From NCBI GenBank assembly GCA_020741275.1, contig DYZK01000109.1, positions 1 to 64,000 of the forward strand: a stretch of DNA of 64,000 nucleotides. Reading direction: 5' to 3'. Below are positions 55,202-60,157 of the stretch, in pieces. Source of the DNA: Corynebacterium urealyticum. Its GTDB lineage: Bacteria > Actinomycetota > Actinomycetes > Mycobacteriales > Mycobacteriaceae. Under the pieces are notes generated by a model. It had not been told where the DNA came from and did not search any database. It saw only the letters and a list, made by a program, of their open reading frames with translations. The position numbers and the translations under genes are program-made. Each line of letters opens with the position of its first letter. Within the stretch, counting starts at the first letter, position 1.

Positions 55202-56047
55202 TTAGGGCAGGCGGAAGCCCGCACCCGAACCGCCGAGCGCGTTCATGTCCGCCGCGATGGCATCCCAGGTGGTGGACACCGCTGGGGAGTGCAGCGGACC
55301 CTGCAGCGGCGTGGTGCAGCTCGGCAGCGGCTGGAAGCCGCCGTTGAGGATGCCGACCAGGCGTCCCCCTGCGTAGACGGGCGCGCCGGAGTCCCCGTGG
55401 GATGCGCAGATGTGGCTCACGAAGGTCTGGCCGAGTTGCCCCAGCACCGGACCACACTTGGTACCGGTGGCCACACCGGTCTTACATGCCGCGTTTGGCA
55501 CACCCGGCACCGGGCCACCAATTCGGTTCAGCGCCACGCGGCCGTAGTTCCGGGTCAGCTGCACGTCGGGGCGCAGGCGGATGACGGAGTAGTCCAGGTT
55601 GCCGAACTTCACGACCTTGCCGATCACACCGGCCTCGGGGGCGTCGAGGGAACGCACCGGGCTGCCCGGCACGCCACAGTGAGCGGCGGTGACCCCCACC
55701 TTGTTGCCCGCAGCATCAATGCCCGTCACCGAGAGGGTGCAGATGCTATCGCCCACCATGATCGGGGTCGAGGGCCCCAGGAGGGCCTGGGGCTGAATGC
55801 GCTGCTGGGCAGCCGGCGCGGTGGGCGAGGTGAAGTAGTGCCCCGGGACGCGGTGCGGGCCCGGCTGACCGGTGGCCGTGAGCGCTGCGTCGAGGGAGCC
55901 CATCGGGTTGGCCGCCGCCTGCCCAGCCGTGCCGACACCCAGCCCGGCAGCGATGCCGAGGCTGGCGAGCAGTCCCGCAGCACCTCGCAGGACGCGCCCG
56001 CGCAGGGTGCGGTGGTGGCGGGCATGGGTCCGGCTGGTGCGCTGCAT
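55202..56047 (-). CDS. Secreted S1 (chymotrypsin-like) serine protease
   Basis: Arg-rich signal peptide (MQRTSRTHARHHRTLRGRVLRGAAGLLASLGIAAG), VTAAHCGVPG (His), LDYSVIRLRPD (Asp), HGDSGAPVYAGGRLVGIL (Ser). Confidence 0.9.
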   Translation of the reverse strand: MQRTSRTHARHHRTLRGRVLRGAAGLLASLGIAAGLGVGTAGQAAANPMGSLDAALTATGQPGPHRVPGHYFTSPTAPAAQQRIQPQALLGPSTPIMVGDSICTLSVTGIDAAGNKVGVTAAHCGVPGSPVRSLDAPEAGVIGKVVKFGNLDYSVIRLRPDVQLTRNYGRVALNRIGGPVPGVPNAACKTGVATGTKCGPVLGQLGQTFVSHICASHGDSGAPVYAGGRLVGILNGGFQPLPSCTTPLQGPLHSPAVSTTWDAIAADMNALGGSGAGFRLP

Positions 56048-56168
56048 GGGGGCGTTCCTTCTGTGACAGGTGGGGCTTGATTCACTTTCACCATAGCGCC
56101 CCCACCAGACACCGCCTACGCCAACGCGCATGGCAAACCCCGGCACTCCCCACACCACCCCACCCCCA

Positions 56169-56204
56169 AAGTTCAATACATTGAACTTGATGATTCATTG
56201 AACT
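56169..56204. promoter_or_regulatory. Inverted repeat AAGTTCAAT-AC-ATTGAACTT plus a third ATTGAACT half-site, candidate metalloregulator operator
   Basis: Read directly; about 20-55 bp upstream of the metal ABC ATPase start. Confidence 0.6.
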
Positions 56205-56224
56205 GAACACTATTCTTGGCTGCC

Positions 56225-57034
56225 ATGAGCATTAGCGTCCAAAAGTTGAGCGTGAGCTACGCCGCGAACACCGCGATTCGGAACATCAGCTTCACCCTCG
56301 ATTCCCCCGGCATGCACGGCATCATCGGCCCCAACGGCTCGGGCAAATCCACCCTCATGAAGGCGATGCTCCAGATCCTGGACAAACACCACGTCCACAG
56401 CACAAGCACCACCGGCACCTCTGCCGGCTACCCCGTCACCCTCGACGGCAAGGCCCCCGCCGAGCAGCGCCAAAAAATCGCTTATATCGAGCAACGATCT
56501 GACCTCGACCGCAACTTCCCCACCAGCGTCTTCGACACCGTCCTGATGGGCACCTACCCACGACTGGGACTGTTCCACCGCCCCGGCAAGGCCGAACGCG
56601 AAGCAGCCACCCAGGCACTCAAGGACGTCGGCATGTGGGACTTTCGCCACCGCCACATCAGCGAACTCTCGGGCGGACAGTTCCAGCGCGTGCTCTTCGC
56701 CCGCGCCATCGTCCAGAACGCGGAGTACATCTTCCTGGACGAGCCCTTCGTCGGCATCGACGTCCCCAGCGAGAAGACAATCGTGACCCTGCTGCGGCAG
56801 ATGGCGGATGCCGGCAAGCACGTCGTCGTCGTACACCACGACATGAACACCGTGCGCGATTACTACGACGACCTCATCGTCCTCAACGGCGAGCTCGTCG
56901 CAGCGGGCCCCACCGAGGAGGTCTTCGTCCCCGACGTGCTGCAGAAGGCCTTCGGCGCGCTCGTCATCCGCGAGCCGGCAGCGCCAGAGCACCCCACGCC
57001 ACGCCAGGCCGAACTTCAGGAGGAGAAAGCATGA
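56225..57034 (+). CDS. Metal (Mn/Zn-type) ABC transporter ATP-binding protein
   Basis: MHGIIGPNGSGKSTLMKAMLQILD, IAYIEQRSDLDRNFPTSVFDTVLMG, LSGGQFQRVLFARAIVQNAEYIFLDEPFVGID. Confidence 0.94.
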   Translation: MSISVQKLSVSYAANTAIRNISFTLDSPGMHGIIGPNGSGKSTLMKAMLQILDKHHVHSTSTTGTSAGYPVTLDGKAPAEQRQKIAYIEQRSDLDRNFPTSVFDTVLMGTYPRLGLFHRPGKAEREAATQALKDVGMWDFRHRHISELSGGQFQRVLFARAIVQNAEYIFLDEPFVGIDVPSEKTIVTLLRQMADAGKHVVVVHHDMNTVRDYYDDLIVLNGELVAAGPTEEVFVPDVLQKAFGALVIREPAAPEHPTPRQAELQEEKA

Positions 57035-58797
57035 TCGCGGAGTTCCTCGACTCGCTACTCAGCCACGGCTACCTGCAAAAAGCTCTGATCACCTCAGTGA
57101 TCGTAGGCGTGGCCTGCGGCATCGTCGGCAGCTTCATCGTGCTGCGCGGCATGGCCCTGATCGGCGACGCAATCTCCCACGCGGTGCTGCCGGGGGTTGC
57201 GGCCTCCTATCTGCTGGGGACGAACCTCTTCCTCGGGGCGGTGGTCGCGGGGCTACTCGCCACACTCGCGATCGGGCTGATCAGCGAACGCTCAACGGTG
57301 AGAAACGATTCGGCGATCGGCATCGTCTTTTCCACCTTTTTCGCGATCGGCGTGCTGCTCATGGCGAAAGCGCAGACGGCGACGGACCTCACGGAGATCC
57401 TCTTCGGCAACGTCCTGACCGTTCAGGACGCCGACCGCAACCTCTCGATCGGCATCGCTGCTGCCGTGCTGCTTCTCACGCTGGCCTTCTATAAGGAACT
57501 CAAACTCAGCACCTTCGACCCCGTAATGGCCCGATCGGCTGGCGTGCCAGTGCGGGCGATCCACTACGGTCTGATGGTGGTGCTCACCCTGGTGACGGTC
57601 ATTTCCCTGCAGACAGTGGGCGTGATCCTGGTGGTTTCCCTGCTGATCACCCCGGCGTCGGCGGCGTACCTGCTGACGAACCGGCTCGGTGTGATGATCG
57701 GGCTCTCGGTGGCGATCTCGGCGACCAGCTCCGTGGTGGGGCTGTTCCTGAGCTATACCTACAATGTGTCCTCCGGCGTGACGATCGTGCTGACCGCCAG
57801 CGCACTGTTCCTGCTGGCTTTCCTCTTCGCTCCAGGCAAGGGCCTGGTCGCCCGCTCGCTGGGTAACAAGCCCCTGGCCGCGCTGCTGGCTCTCCTGCTG
57901 GGTGGCGCCCTGGTGTTCGGCGCCGCCACCTTCTCGGCGGAGGGGAAGGCAGACGGTGAGAAGCTGAACGTCGTCACCACCTTTACGCTGCTGGCGGACC
58001 TGGTGGAGGAGATCGGCGGCGAGGCGGTGGACGTCCATAACCTCGCGCCGACAGGCACGGACCCGCATGACTACGACCCCCTGCCCGCGGACCTGGATGC
58101 GACGAGCGACGCCGATCTGCTGTTCTACAACGGCCTGAACCTCGAGGGCGGCGAGCACGGCTGGTTGGCGAAACTAAAGAACACCGCGGGCCTGGATGAG
58201 TCGCAGATGGTCGAGACCACCAAGGGCGTGGAACCGAAGTACCTCAAAGACGAGGAGGGCAACCGGGAGATCAACCCGCACGCCTTCCTGGACCCGACCG
58301 TCGGCATCGCGATGGCCGAGAACGTGACCGCAGCGCTGGCCGAGGCTCTGCCCGAGCGCGCCGAGCAGATCGAGGAGAAGGGCGCGGAGTACAAGGCCAT
58401 GCTGGAGGGCATCGACGCCGACTACCGCGAGCAGCTCGGCGCGCTGCCGAAGCAGGATCGTGTGCTCGTGGCCAGCGAACACGCCTTCCAGTACATGGTC
58501 GAGACCTATGACATGGAGCAGCTCTATATCTGGCAGATCGACACAGATGAAAACGGCTCCCCAGCGCAGATTGGGCACCTCGTGCGTCAGCTGAAGGACA
58601 AGCGCCCAAAGCACCTGTTCGTGGAGTCGAATGTGGATACGCGCCCCATGAAGACCGTCTCGAAGGAGGCCGGGATTCCGATCTTCGCCGAGCCGCTGCA
58701 CTCCGATGAACTCGGTAAGCCGGGCACGGTCGCCGGAACCTACGAGGATTTCCTGCGCAGCAACTTGAAGACCATGATCGCGGGGCTGACGCGCTAG
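57031..58797 (+). CDS. Fused metal ABC transporter permease (N-terminal) and solute-binding protein (C-terminal)
   Basis: ATG 57031 overlaps ATPase stop (ATGA), SD AGGAGG upstream. N-terminal GSFIVLRGMALIGDAISHAVLPGVAASYLLG permease; then TM PLAALLALLLGGALVFGAATFSA and LNVVTTFTLLADLVEEIGGEAVDVHNLAPTGTDPHDYDPLPADL...NPHAFLDPTVG...VASEHAFQYM binding protein; one uninterrupted frame, 588 aa. Confidence 0.93.
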   Translation: MIAEFLDSLLSHGYLQKALITSVIVGVACGIVGSFIVLRGMALIGDAISHAVLPGVAASYLLGTNLFLGAVVAGLLATLAIGLISERSTVRNDSAIGIVFSTFFAIGVLLMAKAQTATDLTEILFGNVLTVQDADRNLSIGIAAAVLLLTLAFYKELKLSTFDPVMARSAGVPVRAIHYGLMVVLTLVTVISLQTVGVILVVSLLITPASAAYLLTNRLGVMIGLSVAISATSSVVGLFLSYTYNVSSGVTIVLTASALFLLAFLFAPGKGLVARSLGNKPLAALLALLLGGALVFGAATFSAEGKADGEKLNVVTTFTLLADLVEEIGGEAVDVHNLAPTGTDPHDYDPLPADLDATSDADLLFYNGLNLEGGEHGWLAKLKNTAGLDESQMVETTKGVEPKYLKDEEGNREINPHAFLDPTVGIAMAENVTAALAEALPERAEQIEEKGAEYKAMLEGIDADYREQLGALPKQDRVLVASEHAFQYMVETYDMEQLYIWQIDTDENGSPAQIGHLVRQLKDKRPKHLFVESNVDTRPMKTVSKEAGIPIFAEPLHSDELGKPGTVAGTYEDFLRSNLKTMIAGLTR

Positions 58798-58909
58798 AGC
58801 GCGAACGCGCCAGGCCACGACACCGATGGACTCCCCCTGCTCGCAGCGCCCCCTCGTTTTCTTGCAGCGGGCTGGGTGGCAGGCCGTCCGCAGGCTTATT
58901 ATTTGATAC

Positions 58910-60157
58910 ATGGCTGAAACTATCCCCGAGCAGAGGCAGCGAATTCTGCCCTCTCGCGCCCACCTCCCGTACGGGCTGGTGCTCGCCGCCTGGTGGAGCG
59001 CATGCCTGCTGCTGATCGCGGGCGGGGCGATCGTCGGCGCCCGCTTTGTGGAGAAGCTCGCGGTCGTTGTGGCGCCGCTGGCCATCGCGGTGTTGTTTTC
59101 CGCGATGCTCACCCCGGTCGTCAATTTTCTCGACGCCAAGCTGCGCCTCCCCCGCTCCCTGGCATCCTTGCTGACGGTTCTAGGGCTGATCGGGATCATC
59201 TCGGCAGGCGTGACACTTTTCACGACCCAACTGATCTCTGGGGTGCCGGCAATGCGGGATTCCGCCCGTCAGGGCGTGAATCAGATCATCAATTGGCTGG
59301 AGACCGGCCCTTTTAAACTCACCCAGGCGAAGCTCTCCGACATGGTCAACCACGTGCAGGGCGCGCTGTCCGAGAATTCCAAAACAATCGCGGACGGCGC
59401 GGTGCGCACGGGCACGACGGCGGTCAACTCGGGGGCTGCCCTGCTGATCTTCCTGATCACCCTGTTCTTCTTCCTCTACGAGGGACGGCGGATCTGGCTG
59501 TGGCTAGTGTCCCTCGCTCCCCAGGCATCCCAGGTGCCGATGGATGAGGCCTTCCGCCGCGGTTGGGTCTCGCTCGGAACCTTCGCCCACGTGCAGGTGT
59601 TGGTCGCCGCGTTGAACGCGGTGTCGGTCGGCATTGGCTGTTGGGTGATGAAGGTGCCGTTCGCGATTCCGATTTCGGTGCTGGTTTTTATCGCTTCCTT
59701 CGTCCCGATCGTGGGCGCGTTGATTTCCGGTGCGGTGCCCGCGCTGATCGGACTAGTGGATCAGGGCGTGTTCACCGCGATCGTCATGGTGATCATCGTG
59801 ACGGCGGTACACCAGATTGAAACCCACGTGCTGCAGCCCTTCCTGATGGGGCACGCGGTGGCGCTACACCCGCTGGCGGTGATCGTGGTGGTGGCCGCGG
59901 GAACGTACCTCTTCGGCCTGGCGGGCGCGGTGTTCGCGGTGCCGGTGGCGGCAATGGTGAACTCGGTGGTGCGCTACCTGCGCGGCAATGACATGTTCCC
60001 GGCACTCGGCGAGGCCTACGAGCTTCGGAAACCTGGGACGACGCGGGGGCTGACCGACCCGAAGGACGAGGATGCCAACGGGGAGTCTGCGGCTGGCGAT
60101 GCCGCGACGGATGCCCAGGCTGCTGCTTCGGCTGACAGCACCCAACCCCGCGAGTAG
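58910..60157 (+). CDS. AI-2E family transporter
   Basis: 415 aa multi-TM; AIAVLFSAMLTPVVNFL, ...QIETHVLQPFLMGHAVALHPLAVIVVVAAGTYLFGLAGAVFAVPVAAMV. Confidence 0.9.
   Translation: MAETIPEQRQRILPSRAHLPYGLVLAAWWSACLLLIAGGAIVGARFVEKLAVVVAPLAIAVLFSAMLTPVVNFLDAKLRLPRSLASLLTVLGLIGIISAGVTLFTTQLISGVPAMRDSARQGVNQIINWLETGPFKLTQAKLSDMVNHVQGALSENSKTIADGAVRTGTTAVNSGAALLIFLITLFFFLYEGRRIWLWLVSLAPQASQVPMDEAFRRGWVSLGTFAHVQVLVAALNAVSVGIGCWVMKVPFAIPISVLVFIASFVPIVGALISGAVPALIGLVDQGVFTAIVMVIIVTAVHQIETHVLQPFLMGHAVALHPLAVIVVVAAGTYLFGLAGAVFAVPVAAMVNSVVRYLRGNDMFPALGEAYELRKPGTTRGLTDPKDEDANGESAAGDAATDAQAAASADSTQPRE

Follow-up and report, generated by a model that had tools for sequence, protein, structure and literature searches.

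The locus described here probably encodes an ABC importer for manganese whose permease and solute-binding protein form one membrane protein, working in the manner proposed further below. It lies in the window, by which we mean the whole stretch of 64,000 nucleotides of Corynebacterium urealyticum DNA that was analysed, and its features are listed in Table 1. The frame of the fusion gene stays open over 588 codons and runs without a stop from the permease into the binding protein. When the complete protein was searched against Pfam, as had been proposed, it matched both PF00950 (residues 13-266, E 1.2e-76, 258 bits against a cut-off of 20.1) and PF01297 (residues 314-583, E 3.7e-72, far above the cut-off). 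The preliminary description of this DNA had read a permease and a binding protein of the cluster A-I type as fused into a single 588-aa frame, and the open frame together with the two domain matches bears this out at the sequence level. The permease half matched the ABC-3 family and, weakly, FecCD, and none of the type I families. Compared with the properties by which cluster A-I importers are recognised, the locus shows PF00950, PF01297 with H-H-E-D ligands, a D-H-D triad and an adjoining ABC ATPase; its binding protein is not a separate lipoprotein, a trait which is usual in the family but not strictly defining. We regard the fusion as a variant of the cluster A-I metal ABC importers, apparently of their manganese branch, and do not claim it as an ordinary member.

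Table 1. Features of the fusion locus (positions in the window)
Feature	Position	Strand	Details
Whole cassette (promoter region, ATPase gene, fusion gene)	56144..58816	+	~2.67 kb; edges from blastn homology
Perfect palindrome GTTCAA-TACA-TTGAAC	56171..56186	.	probable MntR (DtxR-family) operator
ABC ATPase, MntB-like	56225..57034	+	PF00005, E 1.2e-25; 4-base overlap with permease start
Fusion gene, permease and binding protein	57031..58797	+	588 aa, calculated 62.4 kDa
ABC-3 permease domain	57067..57828	+	PF00950; residues 13-266; triad D46-H50-D93
Junction	57844..57966	+	residues 272-312; basic stretch, hydrophobic helix 282-300, linker of ~12 aa
Metal-binding domain	57967..58794	+	PF01297; ligands H346, H417, E483, D559

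The fusion was present in 16 of 242 Corynebacterium genomes, the window's own included, at 95-96% identity, and the survey that had been called for thus shows that it is not widespread in corynebacteria. Fifteen of the copies match all 588 residues and that of genome G228 matches from residue 15, while the next best matches in the 242 genomes were permeases only, about 43% identical. An independent scan of the contig collection gave eleven named records, including C. minutissimum, C. curieae, C. yonathiae and a strain labelled C. jeikeium, and several of the fusion-bearing genomes are closed or near-closed assemblies. A stop or frameshift hidden by a sequencing error near 57.9 kb, which had been named as a possible refutation, is excluded for practical purposes by the unbroken frame in other genomes. 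More generally, we found no point in support of a sequencing or assembly artefact, and the recurrence of the same structure in 16 genomes reduces the chance of one to a negligible level.

The calculation of dN/dS was based on the copies of the window, L046, L043 and L038, between which synonymous divergence was about 0.2 and reached 0.26. The overall ratio of about 0.09 (0.08-0.10) denotes purifying selection; across lineages the permease had values of 0.03-0.08 and the binding domain values of 0.09-0.22. In the G228 copy (L099, G228:C1 near 637511), an A-run close to codon 15 of the permease differs in length by one base; the gene is otherwise intact, and the change may reflect slippage, a sequencing error or a recent knock-out. 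This frameshift could be taken as a sign that a chance loss of the stop left a gene that is non-functional or decaying. However, every other copy is open and under the purifying selection just described, neither the ligands nor the triad have been lost, and the unit has reached many hosts, which makes decay very improbable.

No other fusions appeared among the matches listed for samples of 395 genomes of the class and 395 genomes of another actinobacterial order, and the viral contigs searched held split relatives only. One IMG/VR contig (L085, 1114-2858) has an ATPase gene together with a tandem pair of metal-type permease genes, and may represent host DNA that entered a viral collection. Our literature searches, which covered mostly freely accessible papers, returned no earlier report of the fusion or of the transposon described below. 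As judged from these papers and from a survey of actinobacterial genomes and viral contigs, the arrangement may be undescribed; its components and its probable function are familiar.

The substrate is most likely manganese rather than zinc, as indicated by the H-H-E-D ligands, the D-H-D triad and the nearest relatives; since metal specificity cannot be read with certainty from a sequence, this is a supported inference. The preliminary description had called the two halves ZnuB/MntB-like and ZnuA/MntA-like, and on these three grounds the manganese part of that description is the more likely one. The closest solved permease chains were those of a manganese permease (7kyp/7kyo, E about 1e-81), and phmmer searches with the binding domain gave MntA (5hx7, 1.7e-71) and PsaA (1psz, 4e-63), with all four ligand positions aligned. 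H346, H417, E483 and D559 of the fusion correspond to the metal ligands H, H, E and D of PsaA. In the permease, D46, H50 and D93 are invariant in alignment A1 and stand where MntC of Bacillus anthracis has D47, H51 and D94, each of which is essential for manganese import (PMC8487065). The best NCBIfam relatives of the ATPase, whose start was taken as the ATG at 56225 (the listed ORF begins at a TTG at 56216), were manganese ATPases, with scores below the equivalog cut-off.

Within the 1.98-Mb genome, GTTCAAN4TTGAAC has no exact match other than the palindrome upstream of the ATPase gene (GTTCAATACATTGAAC), which is kept in other hosts, in some copies with one or two changes. The palindrome is built like the MntR site of C. 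glutamicum and looks more like a target of MntR than of Zur or DtxR. Two DtxR-family genes are present in the window genome, and the palindrome supports MntR as the probable regulator. No consensus sigma-70 promoter was found by the promoter scanner; TTGATG-N18-TATTCT, directly 5' of the ATG at 56225, could in our own reading serve as the promoter and would then give a leaderless message.

The alternative that the fusion imports zinc or iron instead of manganese deserves consideration, as the same fold serves both of these metals and an H-H-E-D site also occurs in iron proteins such as MtsA, a close match of the binding domain. It is nevertheless distinctly improbable, given that the top structural and family relatives are manganese proteins, that the operator-like palindrome points to MntR, and that the one other ZnuA-type protein of the window genome is His-rich and has its own operon (C13). 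Because of this separate operon, the fusion looks like the only Mn-type ABC system of the genome, which also encodes a divergent Nramp-family protein.

The junction between the two domains, whose sequence agrees with the one given in the preliminary description, consists of the basic stretch GKGLVARSLGNK, a single hydrophobic stretch with a Kyte-Doolittle mean of 2.24 and the linker. The sole cysteine of the whole fusion protein is C29, and the junction therefore has no lipobox Cys, in agreement with the preliminary description. Its proposal that the junction is a former signal sequence also gained support: the junction aligns with the signal peptide of the lipoproteins that split genes of Staphylococcus and Listeria encode, and in the Staphylococcus plasmid relative this peptide carries the lipobox LAAC. 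It is the least conserved part of the protein (dN of ~0.07 against 0.01-0.02 in the domains, in pairs with the window), and among the window, L046, L043 and L038 it evolves faster yet keeps its length and hydrophobicity. In the best reading, the junction helix is an uncleaved membrane anchor. The B. anthracis permease has been modelled with nine TM helices and a cytoplasmic basic C-terminal extension, the removal of which abolished activity (PMC8487065). The basic stretch of the fusion occupies the same place as this extension; given nine helices and a cytoplasmic C-terminus, one added helix would put the binding domain outside. AlphaFold2, run on a ten-sequence alignment, gave a poor model, with a mean pLDDT of 59.8 and with the permease and the junction mostly below 50.

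The main rival to an intact tether is cleavage by a signal peptidase. In this case one chain would be translated as a precursor and cut by signal peptidase I after the junction helix, giving a soluble binding domain under the mycolate outer membrane and a normal permease. Such processing would suit the derivation of the junction from a signal peptide and the periplasm-like space that corynebacteria possess. Moreover, all lineages compared have T-F-S at the helix end with A, S or T as the next residue, and a cut between T-F-S and A or T fits the minus 3, minus 1 rule. However, a hydrophobic run of ~20 residues is typical of an anchor and would be long in a signal peptide, and another candidate cleavage site, GAA in the window, reads GAV in the other lineages and is thus not conserved. 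We consider cleavage unlikely. A separate binding protein arising from an internal translation start is also unlikely, as the junction contains no ATG and its alternative starts (GTG or TTG) lie only inside the hydrophobic stretch.

We infer that the permease and binding halves stay joined in vivo; an intact chain would entail two binding domains in every permease dimer. In the uncleaved protein, the basic stretch would remain cytoplasmic, the former lipoprotein signal peptide would span the membrane as an extra helix, and the binding domain would be held outside on its linker of ~12 residues. An assembly of two such chains with two ATPases would give every pore a pair of tethered binding domains, in the way of OpuA, and the tether would substitute for the lipid anchor and hold binding domain and permease at a 1:1 ratio. 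When manganese is sufficient, the operon would be repressed by MntR. The fusion event itself would have consisted of the loss of the permease stop and the lipoprotein start, and IS110 copies would later have captured the unit and carried the cassette between species.

The nearest relatives of the permease were split genes on Staphylococcus plasmids. Two of these (L073, L077) have the same three genes in the same order, and their permease and binding protein, 53% identical to the fusion end to end, are encoded in the same frame and parted by a stop and a short spacer. On a Staphylococcus epidermidis plasmid (L073, 1769-4812) the split mnt operon stands beside a DtxR-family regulator gene, with IS1182 transposase and recombinase genes nearby, and nearly identical split mnt operons were seen on plasmids of several Staphylococcus species. 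An actinobacterial split operon (genome G687, L102) was about 50% identical in both halves and has the same order; its genes overlap at a stop/start ATGA and lie in another frame, its binding protein has the lipobox LLGAC, and a second permease gene follows. In the permease tree, the fused forms fell with those of Staphylococcus plasmids, Listeria and Enterococcus, and the remaining Corynebacterium permeases sampled lay elsewhere; support for the exact sister was weak (91/60 for the Staphylococcus grouping). Together, the same-frame split relatives and the tree suggest that a single event probably gave rise to the fusion, starting from a split operon akin to those of Bacillota, with the order ATPase-permease-lipoprotein. 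The G+C content of the region is like that of its surroundings, which implies either that the gain was not recent or that the donor was also G+C-rich.

When the window was compared with transposon-borne copies by blastn, homology (93% identity) began and ended at the cassette edges given in Table 1, which lie in C-runs. Four genomes (the window's, G158, G228 and G079) form one clade in which the cassette and its flanks are collinear and represent one locus, PcrA of the other three being 95-98% identical to the window's. In this home locus, a secreted protein is encoded at 55202-56176 (-), with AAHC and HGDSGAP motifs like those of a trypsin-type serine protease and no Pfam match at E 0.001, and an AI-2E family transporter (PF01594) is encoded 3' of the cassette at 58910-60157 (+). 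The 12 other Corynebacterium genomes, in which PcrA is 65-77% identical to the window's, have the cassette at other sites, with flanks unlike those of the window and with 98.8-100% identity to the L038 copy. In seven of the 12, the cassette lies between two direct copies of a 1579-bp element that are 99.5-100% identical to the reference copy. As for the remaining five, in two the contig breaks off within the element to the left and to the right of the cassette, one has the right copy only, one an interrupted left copy only and one has none. The element encodes an IS110-family transposase (PF01548 and PF02371). Two direct, near-identical copies occupy 543-2121 and 4816-6394 in L038, and the element was also seen flanking the cassette in L089-L094 and L098; in the window itself, IS copies do not flank the cassette.

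The occurrence of near-identical units at different sites in divergent hosts suggests that the cassette transposes as a unit. The IS110-flanked cassette is probably a composite transposon spread by horizontal transfer, and the transporter has probably been carried recently between Corynebacterium species by the IS110 element. The L043 cassette is 98.2% identical to the mobile form, and the clade of L043 is the likeliest source of the latter. No copy of the cassette was found in a search of the plasmid DNA in PLSDB.

Permease-fused binding domains occur in OpuA and GlnPQ, both type I importers, and work on type II and metal importers has dealt with binding proteins that are free or anchored by a lipid. 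We tentatively suggest, with somewhat less than even confidence, that the fusion is the first known tethered-binding-domain architecture among metal importers of the BtuCD-like (type II) fold, made from a split manganese operon in one event, with two domains anchored at each pore in the style of OpuA, and moved from one Corynebacterium species to another on an IS110 composite transposon. As a natural fusion, it would offer a metal importer with a fixed 1:1 ratio in which docking, stoichiometry and cooperativity could be studied, with the split relatives as controls. The IS110-flanked cassette would also make manganese uptake a recently mobile trait among Corynebacterium species; several of these species are human-associated, and there manganese limitation by the host may select for it.

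With MntBC-A of B. anthracis and PsaBCA of Streptococcus pneumoniae the fusion shares the permease, ATPase and binding-protein families, the D-H-D triad and the H-H-E-D ligands. In those systems, however, the binding protein is a separate lipoprotein, whereas here it stands behind the permease and has no lipobox. The order ATPase-permease-binding protein is common to the fusion operon and the Listeria and Staphylococcus relatives examined; the split mnt operons of the Staphylococcus plasmids also agree in frame and differ by the stop, the spacer, the lipobox and (L073) the DtxR-family repressor gene. The G687 operon has the same order and differs in its frame, ATGA overlap, lipobox and second permease. 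The mntABCD genes of C. diphtheriae (DIP0615-0618) encode a manganese importer under MntR (PMC13001254); this system, which we liken to the fusion by its description, has four separate genes and two permeases. By its sequence, the encoded protein would have its binding domain covalently joined to the TMD, like the SBP-fused importers. Among these, GlnPQ, an amino acid importer of unrelated families and the analogue originally proposed, has two tandem binding domains N-terminal to the TMD (PMC8025302), in contrast to the C-terminal domain of the fusion. OpuA is closer, as its binding domain follows at the C-terminal side, tethered by an anchor helix with a linker of 11 residues (PMC11065425), and two such domains are present per transporter. 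Nevertheless, OpuA is a type I importer of glycine betaine with unrelated permease and binding-protein families. Thus, the fusion resembles type I importers of the OpuA and GlnPQ kind in its arrangement, while its TMD is not homologous to theirs.
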